Assembly (NCBI GenBank): GCA_039636795.1
Contig: CP143430.1
Location: forward strand, 930,001 to 994,000
DNA from: Micrococcaceae bacterium Sec5.1
GTDB lineage: Bacteria > Actinomycetota > Actinomycetes > Actinomycetales > Micrococcaceae
Direction of reading: 5' to 3'
Length of the DNA: 64,000 nucleotides
Made by a program: the position numbers and the translations under genes. Of the stretch, positions 41,337 through 47,101 are shown piece by piece. The first letter of the stretch is position 1. Every line of letters begins with the position of its first letter. A model generated the notes under the pieces. That model was not told where the DNA came from. It made no database searches and was given only the letters and a program-made list of their open reading frames with translations.

Positions 41337-42887
41337 ATGGACAACAACGGAGTTGGATCCTGGCTGCACCGTCGCCGTGCCAAGTCGGGTCCCAAAACGG
41401 CCCTCGTTTCCGGGGATCGCATCCTGAGTTACACGGAGCTCGCCGACCGCACCGATTGCCTCGCCAACGCTCTGAACGAAAGAGGTGTGGTCATGGGCGA
41501 CAGAGTGGCATACCTCGGTGAGAACCATTCGTCGTTTGTTGAGACCTTCTTCGCTTGCGGGCTGCTGGGTGCGATTTTCGTCCCGCTGAACACCCGCCTC
41601 GCCGCCCCTGAGCTGCAGTTCCAACTTCAGGATTCAGGAGCACGGGTCCTGATCAGCGCCGGGGCGCTTGAAGCGGTGGCCGCTGCCTCGGTGGAGGACA
41701 CTGCGGTGACACACCGGCTTGTAGTGCTGCCCGACGCCGGAACCCAAGCTGCCGCGGTCAAGCCGCCATCCGGCGTCGAAAGTTATGACGAGGTACTTTC
41801 AGCGGCAGCCGGGACTCTGCTTGATGTAGCCGTGAGCCTGGACGACCCGGCGATGATCCTCTACACCTCCGGAACCACGGGCAAGCCCAAAGGCGCACTC
41901 CTCACGCACGGAAACATCACATGGAACTGTTTCAACACCGTGGTGGACATGGACCTGAGCAAGAACGACGTCGCGCTGATGATTTCACCCCTGTTTCACG
42001 TTGCCTCCCTGGATATGGGCCTGCTGCCGATGCTGCTCAAAGGTGCCACAGTGGTGCTCGAAACCAAGTTCGACGCCGGCCGCGTCCTCAAACTGATCGG
42101 GCAGCACAAAGTCACCACGCTCAATGGCGTGCCCACCACGTTCCAGATGCTCTGCGACCATCCCGAATGGTCGACGGCGGACCTCACTTCCCTGGACAAG
42201 CTCACCTGTGGAGGGTCTGCTGTTCCACAGCGCGTGTTGGACGCGTATGAGGAGCGGGGCATTGGTTTCACGAGTTGCTACGGCATGACCGAGACTGCCC
42301 CAGGCGCCACGATGCTCCCAGCCTCGAGGTCCAAGGAGAAAGCCGGTTCCGCAGGCCTGCCGCACTTCTTCACCGACGTCCGGATTGCCGACCCGATGGG
42401 TGGGCTCGCTCTTCCCGGTGCAGTGGGGGAGATCCAGATTTCCGGGCCAAATGTCATCAACGAGTATTGGAACAGGCCTGAAGCCACGGCTGATAGTTAC
42501 TCTGATTCGCTGTGGTTCCGTTCAGGGGACATGGGCTTCCAGGACGACGAAGGCTTCTTGTTCGTCTCGGACCGCATCAAGGACATGATCATTTCCGGGG
42601 GCGAGAACATCTATCCGGCCGAAGTGGAAGCCGTGATCGCGGAACTCCCGGAGGTGGGAAGTGTTGCGGTCATTGGGGTCGCCGACCCCAAATGGGGCGA
42701 GGTTCCCCGCGCCATCGTGACACTGCTGGAAGGTGCTTCCCTGACCGAGGAGCAGCTGCGCTCGCATCTTGAAGGACGGCTTGCCCGCTACAAGATCCCC
42801 AAGTCCGTGGTTTTCGTTGAGGAAATGCCGCGGACTGCCAGCGGGAAGATTCGCAAGGTGGAGCTCAAGAAGCAGTTCGCGTCCTGA
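41337..42887 (+). CDS. couL: acyl/aryl-CoA ligase, CouL-like
   Basis: 516-residue AMP-forming ligase. P-loop YTSGTTGKPKG at 176-186, adenine motif GFTSCYGMTETAPGAT, WFRSGDMGFQDDEGF, hinge SDRIKDMIISGGENIYPAEVE, and catalytic Lys in ASGKIRKVELK. It activates the hydroxycinnamate to its CoA thioester and would be the entry step. Starts 12 bases after the transporter with GGAGCACCGCACC before ATG. Directly followed (9 bases) by a 32-bp tandem repeat array. Confidence 0.84.
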   Translation: MDNNGVGSWLHRRRAKSGPKTALVSGDRILSYTELADRTDCLANALNERGVVMGDRVAYLGENHSSFVETFFACGLLGAIFVPLNTRLAAPELQFQLQDSGARVLISAGALEAVAAASVEDTAVTHRLVVLPDAGTQAAAVKPPSGVESYDEVLSAAAGTLLDVAVSLDDPAMILYTSGTTGKPKGALLTHGNITWNCFNTVVDMDLSKNDVALMISPLFHVASLDMGLLPMLLKGATVVLETKFDAGRVLKLIGQHKVTTLNGVPTTFQMLCDHPEWSTADLTSLDKLTCGGSAVPQRVLDAYEERGIGFTSCYGMTETAPGATMLPASRSKEKAGSAGLPHFFTDVRIADPMGGLALPGAVGEIQISGPNVINEYWNRPEATADSYSDSLWFRSGDMGFQDDEGFLFVSDRIKDMIISGGENIYPAEVEAVIAELPEVGSVAVIGVADPKWGEVPRAIVTLLEGASLTEEQLRSHLEGRLARYKIPKSVVFVEEMPRTASGKIRKVELKKQFAS

Positions 42888-42896
42888 GCCCGGATG

Positions 42897-43013
42897 TTCT
42901 CTCACGTCCTGCGGTGTTTTGCCGAACGTTCTCTCACGTCCAGCGGTGTTTTGGCGGTTCTTCTCTCACGTCCCGCGGTGTTTTGCCGAACGTTCTCTCA
43001 CGTCCTGCCGCTG
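42897..43013. repeat. 32-bp tandem repeat array, left copy
   Basis: Units begin with TTCTCTCACGTCC at 42897, 42929, 42961 and 42993, exactly 32 bases apart; the last is partial. Full units continue NGCGGTGTTTTGCCGAACG with few changes. On the other strand the core reads GTGAGAGAAC. The array starts nine bases after the couL stop. A second array with the same core, reversed, lies at 46351-46460 beyond the LuxR gene. Confidence 0.92.
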
Positions 43014-43026
43014 ATCCATGGCGGGG

Positions 43027-43251
43027 TTACTTTTGCTCCGGGATCCAATACGGCGCGTCTACGCCGGCGCCGGTGAGGTTATCGCAGCGAACAAGTTGCG
43101 TGCCGATCCGTTCGAGGAGGCAGTTGACGTAGATTGTGGGGGTTTTGTCCTCGGGGACGTCCGCGGTTGCCTGCCCTTGGGACAGAAAAACGAACGGGAC
43201 GAAGAGTAGGGCGAGGCAAAGACGCCGGGCTGGGCTAACAGGTTCACGCAT
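43027..43251 (-). CDS. small secreted protein with two cysteines (uncharacterised)
   Basis: 74 residues. A Sec signal peptide is clear: MREPVSPARRLCLALLFVP then FVFLSQGQATA, cleavage expected near residue 30 before DVPEDK. The mature part of about 44 residues has two Cys (YVNCLLERIG...RCDN), probably a disulfide loop, and ends WIPEQK. Start ATG 43251 with AAAGGA eight bases upstream; a longer in-frame reading to 43377 has none. It diverges from the LAL regulator across 143 bases. No family recognised. Confidence 0.68.
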   Translation of the reverse strand: MREPVSPARRLCLALLFVPFVFLSQGQATADVPEDKTPTIYVNCLLERIGTQLVRCDNLTGAGVDAPYWIPEQK

Positions 43252-43394
43252 GGCAAGGTTCCTTTGAGTGGTGCTTGTGGGTAACTTCACTCTGCGTCGT
43301 GCCCTCATACCGGGGCATCCGGACTTCACCCTTAAACTCACCGTAAATACCCTCGGATCTACCCCATGGGTCAGCAAGGTGCGAAGCTTGAACG

Positions 43395-46295
43395 GTGGCT
43401 ACTAGGGCCAAATCCAACGGAGCTGATCTGGTGGGCCGGGAGGATGAACTGGCTGAACTCGAGGGTATGGTCGACGCCGTGCGCGCTGGAGCGTCCAGGA
43501 CGTTTATCGTGTCCGGCGACGCGGGTGTAGGCAAGACGGCATTGGTAGGGCAGATCTGTGCCACGGCTTCCCTGGATGTACTTGTTCTCAGTGGGGCAGC
43601 ACTGCCGCTGACGACACTTAAAGTGCCATTTCAGGCCCTCCGTTCGGCCTTCCACGGTGCAGCCCAGCTGGGGACGCCAGTGCCCTTCGGCAGTAACGCA
43701 ATGGTCGAAGCACGGGTGGAAAGTCCGCTTTTCGTTGACGAGTGGCTGACCACGCTCAGCAGTTCCAGACCCGTGCTCCTGGTGATCGATGATCTTCAGT
43801 GGTCCGACCCACAAACACTGGATATCCTGATGTTCCTCATCGCGGGGCCCGCAGACCGTTCGTTGGGCATTGTGGCCACTGTCCGTTCGGACATCCCGAC
43901 GGAAAACCAGCCTCTTGAGCGATGGATGACGGACATCCGCCGGCTGCCGAGCGTGGAACTCGTGACACTTCGGCCTCTGGACAGGCCGGCAACTGCTACC
44001 CAAATCTCCCGGCTGCTGGGTGTGCCTCCGCCCCAGTCCCTGGTTACGGAGGTATACGCGCACTCCGCCGGAAACCCTTACTTCACCCGACTCCTGATCG
44101 AGGGCATGAGAGCCAACGGCAGGCGGTTCGAGGACGGCTTTCCGCCGGATCTAAGGGGTGCCGTCCTCAGATCCTGGAAGGGCCTACCTAAAGCTGCGCA
44201 ACAACTGACTCGGATTCTGGCTATTGCCGGACGATCGGTAGACGCTGCTGAACTACGCACGGTTGCCAGGGGAACTATCGCCCAGGAAACAGTTTTGCCT
44301 ATGCTGCAGACAGCTGCGACCGCGGGGATCGTGGACCTGCTGCCAGACGGCACTTACTGGTTTCACCATCCACTCATCGCGGAGATGCTCGAGCAGGGCA
44401 TGGACGGCGAGGAGAGGCGCTCTTGGCATTCAGCTTTTGCCGATGCTTATGAGAACTCCTTGTCATTGGGACCACAGCGTACTTCCGGGACGATCGCCTC
44501 CTTGGCCGAACACCACTACCACGCTGAACGATGGGCGTCCGCCTATCAATGGACCGTTCGTGCAGCCACGGAATATGTCCACCTCGGAAACTGGGGTGAT
44601 GCCCTGCGAATGTTCCGTCGGGCAGTGGAGCTCACGGACAAAGCGGGCATGGTGCCGGAGATTCTCCGTGAACTCTGGGAGCAGGTCAGGAATGCCGCAT
44701 TCCGCTCCGGTGACCAGAAAGCTGAACTGGAAGCTTTGGAATCATTGATCTCACTCACCAAACCCACCGCCCAACCCTTGGAGACTGCTGCTTGGCTGGT
44801 GAGGCGGATGCACCTGTCGATGTCCACGGGAAGGTCTTTCTTTGATCTGGCGGAGATGGAGCGGGCGGTTCAGCTTTCTGCGGCTCATCCTCAAAGCTGG
44901 CAGCACGCGCTGGTTTTGGCAGAGTATACGCACGCTGCGCTGTGGCTTGACCGCGATGCCGGAGCCGAAGGCGCGGCACAGGCGCTTACGCTTGCCCGCC
45001 TGACAGGAAACCCCATACCCATGTCCTACGCGCTGACAGCCGCTGCAATGGTGGAGCTCTTCGCCAGGCACCCGGAGGAGGCTTTCAGCCTGGCAAAATC
45101 CGCAGCGGACGAGGCGCTCCGAGCCAAGGATTACTGGGGGTACCTCCATGCCGTGGCTTGGCTGGCCAACTCCCAGGAGAGCTGGATCAGCCAAGAGTAC
45201 GCGGACGTTCTCCACATCGCCCGCGAGGAACTTGCCAGACACGAGGCTCCCCACTCCTACATCTCCAAGATCGCAGCGGATGAAGCCGGCAGCTTCCTCG
45301 GAATTGGCTCCTGGCGCGAGGCGCAGACGGCCTTGCGTATCGCCATCAGCCTGGACCCTGGTCCAATGGGGGATGTGAGCGCCCGATTGACGGCGGCACG
45401 GCTGGATGCATTGCAAGGACGGACGCAGGATGCTTTTGTCCATTTAGCCCGCGCTGGAGAAGTGAATGACAACACTGAGGCCTATCTCAACCTCAACTTC
45501 GCGGCGATCCGTTCAGAGGTCCATGCTCTTGCCGGCCAGCCGGAGGCCTCGCTCGAAGCTGCCATGACTGGCGCCCTGCGCCCCGGACCACCACCTACCA
45601 TGTGCGAGTGGTTGCTGCCCTTGGCGGCCAGGGCTCTCGCCGATCTCGTCCAAAATGCCAAGGACGAAGGAACGCCAACCGCTGGATTTCTGTCCGAAGT
45701 GGTTCAACTTGAAGAGCGCTTTCCTCATGTTTTCAACGAGCCTGGAGAACAATCGGAGCTGTATCAACGCCAAGTATTTGCCTTCGAAAGCCTCTATGCC
45801 GCGGAACTTGGCCGTGCACGGGGAGATCACGCCAATGCCGATGCTTGGATTCACACTGCTGATGCCTGCAGGGACGCTTCCCTGGCTTGGGAACATGCCT
45901 ATGCATGCCAACGCGCCGCCGAATCGCTCCTCCTGCAGGGCCACAGCGCCAAGGCCCAAGCCTCGCAGATCCTCCGCAGGGGACTTCAACTGGCGCGCGA
46001 TCTTCAAGCCGTTCCCGTGCAGAGGGTTTTGGAGCAACTCGCTGACCAAGCCAAGATCTCGCTAACGCCCATCACACGGCCCAACCCTGAAGTCAGCAAC
46101 CGCCATGGGTTGACGGCACGCGAGGCAACCATCCTCGACTATGTCGTTGCAGGCAGAACCTACAGGGAGATTGCTGAATCGTTGTTTATCAGCGAGAAAA
46201 CGGTGAGTTCGCACATTTCCAGTCTTCTGCGGAAAACCGGCGCCTCCAATAAGTTTGATCTGGCACGGCTGGAGCGTAAGAAATCTGACGGATGA
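43395..46295 (+). CDS. LuxR-family regulator of the LAL (large ATP-binding) type
   Basis: 966 residues. N-terminal AAA/NACHT-like ATPase: LVGREDELAELEG, Walker A SGDAGVGKTAL (40-50), Walker B PVLLVIDDLQWSDPQTLDIL. The middle is alpha-helical TPR-like repeats. The C-terminal LuxR helix-turn-helix is LTAREATILDYVVAGRTYREIAESLFISEKTVSSHISSLLRKTGASNK. Such MalT-like proteins are ATP- and effector-dependent activators. Start is GTG 43395 with a weak upstream AAGG. It is bracketed by two inverted 32-bp repeat arrays and diverges from a small secreted protein gene, which is its most likely target. Confidence 0.9.
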   Translation: MATRAKSNGADLVGREDELAELEGMVDAVRAGASRTFIVSGDAGVGKTALVGQICATASLDVLVLSGAALPLTTLKVPFQALRSAFHGAAQLGTPVPFGSNAMVEARVESPLFVDEWLTTLSSSRPVLLVIDDLQWSDPQTLDILMFLIAGPADRSLGIVATVRSDIPTENQPLERWMTDIRRLPSVELVTLRPLDRPATATQISRLLGVPPPQSLVTEVYAHSAGNPYFTRLLIEGMRANGRRFEDGFPPDLRGAVLRSWKGLPKAAQQLTRILAIAGRSVDAAELRTVARGTIAQETVLPMLQTAATAGIVDLLPDGTYWFHHPLIAEMLEQGMDGEERRSWHSAFADAYENSLSLGPQRTSGTIASLAEHHYHAERWASAYQWTVRAATEYVHLGNWGDALRMFRRAVELTDKAGMVPEILRELWEQVRNAAFRSGDQKAELEALESLISLTKPTAQPLETAAWLVRRMHLSMSTGRSFFDLAEMERAVQLSAAHPQSWQHALVLAEYTHAALWLDRDAGAEGAAQALTLARLTGNPIPMSYALTAAAMVELFARHPEEAFSLAKSAADEALRAKDYWGYLHAVAWLANSQESWISQEYADVLHIAREELARHEAPHSYISKIAADEAGSFLGIGSWREAQTALRIAISLDPGPMGDVSARLTAARLDALQGRTQDAFVHLARAGEVNDNTEAYLNLNFAAIRSEVHALAGQPEASLEAAMTGALRPGPPPTMCEWLLPLAARALADLVQNAKDEGTPTAGFLSEVVQLEERFPHVFNEPGEQSELYQRQVFAFESLYAAELGRARGDHANADAWIHTADACRDASLAWEHAYACQRAAESLLLQGHSAKAQASQILRRGLQLARDLQAVPVQRVLEQLADQAKISLTPITRPNPEVSNRHGLTAREATILDYVVAGRTYREIAESLFISEKTVSSHISSLLRKTGASNKFDLARLERKKSDG

Positions 46296-46606
46296 CGTAC
46301 GACGACGGCGCGTGGCTAGTGCCGCCGTCGAACCTCAATGGGAGTTCCATGAGAGAACATAGGCCAGAAAGGGCGGATATGTGAGAGAGCATGCCTCAAA
46401 ATCGGCAGTTATGTGAGAGAACGTTGGGTTAAAAGGGTTGGTATGTGAGAGAGGGATTGGTGCGACATAATCCGCCACCGAACTAAATCCCGGTTAATTT
46501 TGTCCATTGACCTGCATAAATACCGCGGAGAGCACTACGATGAGCAACGACTCATCACTGAGTTTGGTCTCATTGCATCATTCACACCTAACCCCGGGGG
46601 AACACC
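46296..46606. other. intergenic region carrying the right repeat array
   Basis: 311 bases. The first half holds the repeat array at 46351-46460. The second half is AT-richer and includes the leader of the DUF805 gene (GGGGAACACC ribosome site at 46597-46606). An 101-codon ORF from about 46507 overlaps DUF805 in another frame and is not credited. Confidence 0.6.
46351..46460. repeat. 32-bp periodic repeat array, right copy (inverted)
   Basis: Cores GAGAGAAC, GAGAGAGC, GAGAGAAC and GAGAGAGG start at 46351, 46383, 46415 and 46447, exactly 32 bases apart; three of the four are preceded by ATGT. The 20 bases between cores vary (unlike the left array), though GTTnGGnnAAAA is partly kept. Orientation is opposite to the left array. 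Confidence 0.85.
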
Positions 46607-47101
46607 GTGAGTTACCAGCAACAGCCACAGCACACCCAGCCGTATGGCGCACAGACCGGCGAACCGCCGCTGTGGGCTCCCTACTATGGCGCACCCATTG
46701 GCGCCGCTGTAAAGCGTTTCTTCAAGAAGTACACCGCCTTCACGGGCCGTGCGAGCCGCAGCGAATACTGGTGGGTGGCCCTCGCTTTGGGTGTCATCGG
46801 CCTCGTGCTTGAGTTCATTTTCCTTGGCCTGGGCACTGCTGGCGCAACCGTTTCAGCTGACGGAACATTAGTGCCTGGAGGTGGCTTTGTCGTGGGCATA
46901 ATTTTGCTCGTCATTTTCGGCCTGGCAACGATCATTCCGTCCATTGCGCTGATCGTCCGCCGTCTGCACGATGGCAACTTCAGCGGCTGGCTCGCCCTCA
47001 TCGGTCTGGTTCCCTTCGTGGGTGGACTGGGCCTGCTGGTACTGATGCTCCTGCCGTCCAACCCGGCCGGCCAGCGTTTCGACCAGCCCAGCGGTTTCTA
47101 G
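46607..47101 (+). CDS. DUF805 membrane protein
   Basis: 164 residues: a Gln/Pro-rich cytosolic head (1-30), FFKKYTAFTGRASRSEYWWV typical of DUF805, and about four helices including IALIVRRLHDGNFSGWLALIGLVP, the family's conserved RRLHD-SGW motif. GTG start with GGGGAACACC in front. Function unknown. Followed by a strong terminator. Confidence 0.92.
   Translation: MSYQQQPQHTQPYGAQTGEPPLWAPYYGAPIGAAVKRFFKKYTAFTGRASRSEYWWVALALGVIGLVLEFIFLGLGTAGATVSADGTLVPGGGFVVGIILLVIFGLATIIPSIALIVRRLHDGNFSGWLALIGLVPFVGGLGLLVLMLLPSNPAGQRFDQPSGF

Follow-up and report, generated by a model that had tools for sequence, protein, structure and literature searches.

Arrays of 32-bp direct repeats behind genes of the Arthrobacter group and their possible role in ending transcription

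In a 64,000-nucleotide stretch of the genome of Micrococcaceae bacterium Sec5.1 (contig CP143430.1, positions 930,001 to 994,000; the whole stretch is here called the window), two inverted arrays of a short repeat enclose the genes for a LAL-type regulator and a small secreted-looking protein. We found that these arrays are two members of one interspersed-element family of the Arthrobacter group. The elements follow stop codons immediately, in most cases reading TCTCTCAC on the coding strand, and are commonest between convergent genes. We are highly confident of both the family identity and the gene-end placement. The best explanation as a whole, to which we give slightly less than an even chance on the strength of sequence comparison, is that the arrays would be DNA read by a protein and would end or insulate transcription.

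Composition and spread of the family

Each element consists of two to seven direct copies of a 32-bp unit with the core YTCNNTCAC. A short GA-rich flank lies 5' of the core, and an AT-rich block follows roughly two helical turns past the core start. The unit approximates GAYSY-TCTCTCAC-RTCC...TT in the Sec5.1 genome (181 cores) and RACGC-TCTCTCAC-TTCC in the comparison genome G020 (99 cores). Across 521 distinct units, the block at +18 to +22 carries A or T in 50-90% of units, reaching 0.89-0.90 at +19/+20, and is flanked by GC-rich stretches; in G020, A and T are about equally frequent there. A-or-T peaks fall at positions 8-9, 18-22, and 28 of the unit, an alternation of AT-rich and GC-rich stretches near the helical period. 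Core and spacing are held fixed while spacers diverge. Among 602 distinct spacings between neighboring cores (range, 20-44 bp), 576 equal 32 bp, 12 equal 33 bp, and 11 equal 31 bp. When adjacent spacers are compared over their 24 positions, the mean number of differences is 4.0, and 57 of 272 pairs have 8 or more. Near-duplicates were removed for the spacing, within-unit covariation, and facing-pair analyses and kept for the counts of gap placement, stop distance, and orthologue recurrence. Three simple-repeat loci (L137, L203, and L206) were left out of the covariation, gap-placement, and stop-distance analyses; a fourth, L165, is still in these and was left out of the spacing and facing-distance analyses and of sequence-model set A1.

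Two other accounts of the unit were rejected. A hairpin inside each unit was rejected because no covariation was seen in 169 spacers (top z, 2.4; shuffle maxima averaged 2.19, the largest being 3.73). A CRISPR array does not fit the short conserved core, the shared spacer consensus, and the occurrence of two to seven units at dozens of sites (cas genes were not searched for).

In the Sec5.1 genome (one contig, 5.43 Mb), the pattern TCTCTCAC-N24-TCTCTCAC occurs exactly 102 times, versus 0 for a reversed control, and 179 times, versus 10, when up to two mismatches are allowed. An earlier reading of the window, made from its letters alone and here called the sequence-only reading, had suggested a dispersed actinobacterial repeat family; these counts and the spread across the genus show that it was right. 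Exact pairs were present in 21 of the 59 genomes searched, all of the same genus (Sec5.1 and 20 of 36 others), and in none of 22 genomes from other genera of the order. With a sequence model and stricter filters, arrays were found in 25 of 245 genomes of the family, representing 2 of 32 genera. The second genus has the cores CTCCCTCAC, CTCGCTCAC, CTCTATCAC, and CTCTGTCAC, with a period that is nearly always 32 and the same architecture as the first. Because the middle core letters differ there, we defined the core as YTCNNTCAC; the Sec5.1 genome too contains core-letter variants, and both spacer consensus and core letters differ genome by genome. A scan of named records for three-core arrays yielded at least 120 loci, and among those listed, 116 are titled Arthrobacter, Paenarthrobacter, or Pseudarthrobacter, the remaining 4 being the simple repeats L137, L203, L206, and L165. 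Records of Paenarthrobacter aurescens TC1 are among those that bear arrays. Phage origin was considered and rejected: six viral contigs match the two-core pattern, three of which are, by eye, CT-rich simple repeats and three a single unrelated sequence. As a separate observation, about 1.82 to 3.14 Mb of the Sec5.1 genome, a quarter of the chromosome, holds no exact array pair among the matches listed.

Placement at gene ends

Across 158 loci, 172 gaps are convergent, 435 tandem, and 158 divergent, and arrays occupy 89, 79, and 18 of them, respectively; genes were called with a simple, self-written caller, and because the loci were chosen for having arrays, these fractions are read as ratios only. 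The array-bearing tandem gaps comprise 45 with arrays in sense only, 23 with arrays on both strands, and 11 with arrays in antisense only, and 67 of the 89 array-bearing convergent gaps carry an array on one strand only. We recorded the distance from the stop codon for 183 arrays that have a gene in sense orientation close upstream. Thirty-one start exactly 3 bp past the stop (TGA, 16; TAA, 13; TAG, 2), the position at which the stop codon itself provides the GA or AA letters of the motif; none start 0-2 bp past it, 7 lie inside the called gene end, and the others trail off.

Placement was also compared between genomes. We tested 387 Sec5.1 genes, 43 of which have an array behind them. Orthologues of the array-bearing genes have an array in 71 cases and lack one in 44, a figure inflated because most comparison loci were fetched for their arrays and near relatives were kept; orthologues of array-free genes have an array in 33 cases and lack one in 304. 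In 13 loci of G020, 6 of 26 array-bearing ends are also array-bearing in Sec5.1, where chance would give about 2% (estimated from the number of genes rather than counted). By these comparisons, the same genes are followed by arrays in other species as well. The sequence-only reading had named hundreds of identical arrays at random sites as an outcome that would reduce them to a generic repeat; there are indeed many arrays, but their sites are far from random and are shared between species. Ten recurring array-bearing ends belong to the genes for phosphoenolpyruvate carboxylase, formate-tetrahydrofolate ligase (locus L043, where the array stands between two conserved convergent genes), inositol-phosphate synthase, and an rRNA methylase, as well as to genes for regulators and further enzymes.

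Facing arrays and how the elements may be read

Cores facing each other at close range occur in 99 of 206 genomes of the genus (Sec5.1 included), and wider facing cores occur in 104. Among the matches listed, close facing cores span 18-20, 29, or 39-41 bases, with a single exception of 25, although lengths of 16-46 were permitted. When degenerate cores are allowed, the distance between the two cores of a close facing pair is 10-12, 21, or 31-32 bp in 56 of 58 cases and 25 or 26 bp in the other two. The 21-bp class accounts for 39 of the 58, and a TTTCTT-N-AAGAAA center is often shared within it. Allowing one mismatch per core gave 116 facing pairs, with gaps of 2-5 bp (18 pairs), 13 bp (62), 15-17 bp (3), 23-24 bp (7), and 31-44 bp (26), many in the last group being pairs whose inner core had decayed or was skipped in the count.

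The gap-13 pairs can be followed base by base. Their inner arms match locus by locus at positions -8 to -2, with no consistent match beyond. In 58 sequences, a 20-pair stem is 90.5% paired, changes on both sides are found at 12 of the 20 base pairs, and none of 500 shuffles reaches any of five measures (the shuffles do not control for relatedness). This covariation fits a hairpin or cruciform, or quasi-palindrome correction. At positions -13/-12 of the same pairs, the AT blocks match less often than re-paired controls (0.31 versus 0.45-0.50), and a run of the same letter on the top strand is favored. An apparent long-range phasing of facing arrays (R of 0.71 at 10.67 bp; 65 pairs, including 4 simple-repeat loci) was discarded as inflated by pairs with a decayed inner core, because each such core adds 32 bp.

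The asymmetric conserved core, the fixed three-turn spacing, the A-or-T block, and the 10- to 11-bp steps of the close facing pairs lead us to consider it probable that the arrays are read at the DNA level. A putative sequence-specific protein would recognize them as double-stranded DNA, one copy loading every three helical turns on one face of the helix, and the loaded array would act as a barrier, ending or insulating the transcription that comes out of the upstream gene. The latter role is suggested by the position of the arrays directly behind stops, in sense, and at convergent ends; we rate it as conceivable and somewhat short of an even chance. A more specific version, a dedicated termination and insulation system that would be the bacterial counterpart of the TTF-I arrays described below, is doubtful: a clade-specific protein would polymerize on the phased three-turn arrays and halt RNA polymerase in one direction, and facing arrays would lock convergent ends.

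Two known arrangements are partly comparable. Iterons are direct repeats at whole helical turns that align an initiator on one DNA face, with two turns per unit. The arrays are likewise direct repeats at a whole number of turns but have three turns per unit and lie at gene 3' ends, at dozens of loci per genome. The earlier proposal of iteron-like sites on one DNA face is plausible, given the retained 32-bp spacing and the distances between close facing cores; in the sense of a replication-origin element it fails, the arrays being at dozens of chromosomal gene ends and not at an origin with a Rep gene. TTF-I/Sal-box arrays of eukaryotic rDNA follow a transcription unit and consist of protein sites at which polymerase is halted in one direction. 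The arrays described here would resemble them as putative protein sites behind a transcription unit; the eukaryotic arrays belong to one locus type, while ours stand behind many bacterial genes and have a putative binder.

Several observations weigh against protein-read arrays that end or insulate transcription. This analysis found no partner DNA-binding protein. A close facing pair of exact cores is lacking in 107 of the 206 genomes, so not every member of the genus needs the system. At ligase loci, which were fetched irrespective of arrays, an array follows 2 of 25 scored orthologues (the ligase of genome G175 has an array and is unscored, the gene being cut off in its locus), and this stands beside the bias of the recurrence test noted above. 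The right array of the window is antisense to both adjoining genes, so that the sense-end rule fails there. The arrays are not seen to replace intrinsic terminators: hairpin-plus-T sites, called with a crude predictor, occur at 27 of 141 ends with arrays and 52 of 381 without, and at convergent ends only, at 18 of 90 and 15 of 118, respectively. As to phasing, the 21-bp class may be one ancestral palindrome, in which case descent explains part of it; 3 of the 116 facing pairs, at gaps of 15-17 bp, lie outside the distance classes; and 13 facing pairs more than 34 bp apart have no clear phase (P of about 0.1 at 10.67 bp, 0.03 at 11.0 bp, and 0.2 at 10.5 bp). The AT block of Sec5.1 is mostly T on the coding strand (75-76%), which a reading in RNA would also fit, and the compensatory changes in the tight pairs fit such a reading as its best evidence.

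In that alternative, which we consider unlikely, the arrays would be terminators at the RNA level: the array transcript (UCUCUCAC repeats, with more C than G, just past the stop) would be a Rho loading site, to which tight facing pairs would add a long hairpin. The sense orientation directly behind stops agrees with this, as do the T bias of the Sec5.1 block, the gap-13 stem with its two-sided changes, and the composition of sense spacers (C, 0.357, and G, 0.255, versus 0.311 and 0.298 at array-free ends). Like rut sites, the arrays are mildly richer in C than in G, in sense, and directly past the stop; unlike them, they have a conserved core and an exact period and occur in 2 of 32 genera sampled. 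Rho is not known to require an invariant 8-mer or exact 32-nt spacing. No covarying hairpin was seen within the array unit, and relative to their shuffles, the arrays are not much less structured than other ends (mean z, -1.85 in 60 sampled arrays and -2.19 in 60 other ends). The presence of both A and T in the G020 block and the 10- to 11-bp steps of the facing distances count against an RNA reading, and since most array-bearing convergent gaps (the 67 of 89 given above) carry arrays on one strand only and form no hairpin, a hairpin is not the general principle.

Selfish or neutral repeats spreading inside a genome, with copies tolerated behind genes and shared positions reflecting descent only, are likewise an improbable account. 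The genome-specific spacer consensus and core letters, the patchy presence among genomes, and the use of arrays as insertion sequence (IS) targets speak for it. Sec5.1 has five full IS3-family copies (HTH_Tnp_1 plus rve; 99.9-100% identical), each lying within an array or no more than about 50 bp away from one (distances by eye). These copies were first noticed between arrays; a genome-wide search gave no further full copy, so all five lie in array loci. One of two partial matches, a 119-bp remnant with 83% identity at 519507-519625 (locus L031), has a facing array on each side, which hints that arrays have served as IS sites more than once. Against selfish spread stand the fixed core and spacing despite spacer divergence, the orientation and packing against the stop codon, and the positions held in common with G020, where the ligase orthologue has only 66-68% identity. 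The REP-associated transposase RAYT (PF01797) exceeded the cut-off in 1 of the 101 genomes sampled from the genus and in none of 20 array-bearing genomes (Sec5.1 and G020 included), with one match below the cut-off in G066; repetitive extragenic palindromes (REPs) borne by RAYT were rejected on these counts.

The arrays nonetheless share features with REPs and the bacterial interspersed mosaic elements (BIMEs) that contain them: many short intergenic copies, a 3'-end location, and a convergent bias. According to PMC3733652, these elements lie predominantly between convergent or tandem open reading frames (ORFs), and in two species most convergent copies are <20 bp from ORF 3' ends. Targeting by IS3-family elements is a further likeness, IS1397 and ISKpn1 having a like habit toward REPs according to PMC1525189. 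The REP unit is an imperfect palindrome of 20-40 bp, whereas the arrays are direct, gene oriented, and exactly periodic, and show palindromy only across tight facing pairs. Their logo has no GTAG tag; the flank GACG reads CGTC on the other strand, yet it is paired in tight pairs. Because the unit is not palindromic and no RAYT passed the cut-off in the array-bearing genomes, we class the arrays as a variant of intergenic 3'-end repeats. Dyad pairs of Pasteurellaceae uptake signal sequences at gene 3' ends probably serve as terminators, as stated in PMC5217627. They too form 3'-end dyad pairs of a short clade-specific motif; the present elements differ in having two to seven direct copies (only arrays, not single cores within genes, were counted).

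The arrays could also be topological elements that bind a wrapping enzyme or nucleoid protein handling positive supercoils between convergent genes, like the gyrase-binding BIMEs of Escherichia coli. We think this very unlikely. According to PMC1525189, gyrase and IHF are bound by REPs, and supercoiling tends to arise at convergent ends; the strong convergent bias of the arrays and the AT/GC alternation near the helical period would suit such a role. A general enzyme would not need an asymmetric core confined to 2 of 32 sampled genera, and gene-relative orientation is not predicted.

The array family is apparently undescribed. Our literature search, whose coverage leaves out most subscription journals, found no paper pairing Arthrobacter with the 10-mer GTGAGAGAAC and none about such arrays. 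The words Arthrobacter and Actinobacteria occur 0 times in PMC3733652 and PMC1525189, and these two words and Streptomyces occur 0 times in PMC2267715.

The window locus and what the family means

The features of the window locus are listed in Table 1. The left array is the best-scoring tandem repeat of the window (42896-43008; period, 32; score, 177) and lies in sense 3' of the ligase gene, its first core 10 nt past the stop. A direct position check bore out the units read earlier, TTCTCTCACGTCC starting at 42897, 42929, 42961, and 42993 on the plus strand, with cores spanning 42898-43001. The right-array cores are ATGAGAGA at 46349 (one mismatch) and GTGAGAGA at 46381, 46413, and 46445, spanning 46349-46452; the GAGAG starts reported for this array (46351, 46383, 46415, and 46447) and an exact 32-bp period in both arrays proved correct. 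The right array had been thought to keep only the core. It keeps more, its 50-nt units being 66-74% identical to a reference copy. A search of positions 42800-46700 against Rfam gave no matches up to an E value of 1.

Table 1. Arrays and neighboring genes in the window locus
Feature	Positions	Strand	Remarks
AMP-binding ligase	41337..42887	+	PF00501/PF13193; left array at 3' end
Left array	42897..43008	+	4 units; TCTCTCAC cores at 42898, 42930, 42962, 42994; period exactly 32 bp
Small secreted-looking protein	43027..43377	-	No Pfam family; between array arms; relatives traced by tblastn
LAL-type regulator	43395..46295	+	AAA_16 and GerE/LuxR HTH; between array arms
Right array	46349..46456	-	4 inverted units between LAL gene and DUF805 gene
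DUF805 gene leader (TAATCCG...TAAATCC...)	46469..46606	+	Outer edge of right array
DUF805 protein	46607..47101	+	Right-hand anchor of locus; adjoins array(s) in G034 and G008 (gene start there read by eye)

The enclosed genes were correctly read as a divergent pair of LuxR/LAL regulator and secreted protein. Homologues of the regulator occur in 8 of 203 other genomes of the genus, a relative of the secreted protein lies beside it in all 8, and the two genes by this comparison form a conserved divergent pair. Seven of the 8 loci have no array in flanks of about 1.5 kb, with G175 the sole exception. Ligase orthologues in G034, G008, and G175 are likewise followed by a plus-strand array. In G034, the order is ligase, plus array, minus array 13 bp further (by eye), and DUF805, and in G008 it is ligase, a plus array of CTCGTTCAC cores, and DUF805; neither has the two-gene cassette. 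In G175, the ligase is followed by a two-unit plus array, the secreted protein and LAL genes, and DUF805, and the right array is absent. The DUF805 leader is recognizable by eye in G034 and G008 and, with changes, in G175. G023 and G033 have neither array nor cassette, and their slot is longer, with a 141-codon open frame in G023.

Array pair and cassette thus come and go independently; what looked like a bracket is a pair of facing arrays that has two genes in between, and the LAL and secreted-protein genes are, on this comparative evidence, chance guests between facing arrays. The arrays do not always flank the same genes, and we give practically no credence to the idea, raised in the sequence-only reading, that they are ends or scars of a mobile cassette carrying the pair: inverted arrays do flank the two genes in the window, but the empty and single-array sites in relatives, the seven further LAL loci free of arrays, and the many arrays elsewhere with other genes or none in between reject it.

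Two further observations concern the ligase loci. In the array-free loci L076 and L077 (genomes G006 and G001), a long inverted repeat, GGTATGGTTCCGCC...GGCGGAACCATACC, lies directly past the ligase stop and is possibly another 3'-end repeat family. The ligase orthologue of L081 (G035) has one in-frame TGA.

The array family accounts for many repeat pairs that would otherwise be taken as cassette ends. Even as no more than a repeat family, it has a fixed geometry, recurs in position at gene 3' ends, and serves as an IS landing site. Should the arrays prove to be protein-bound terminators or insulators, many genes of a common soil genus would be ended by a route other than the intrinsic and Rho-dependent ones.

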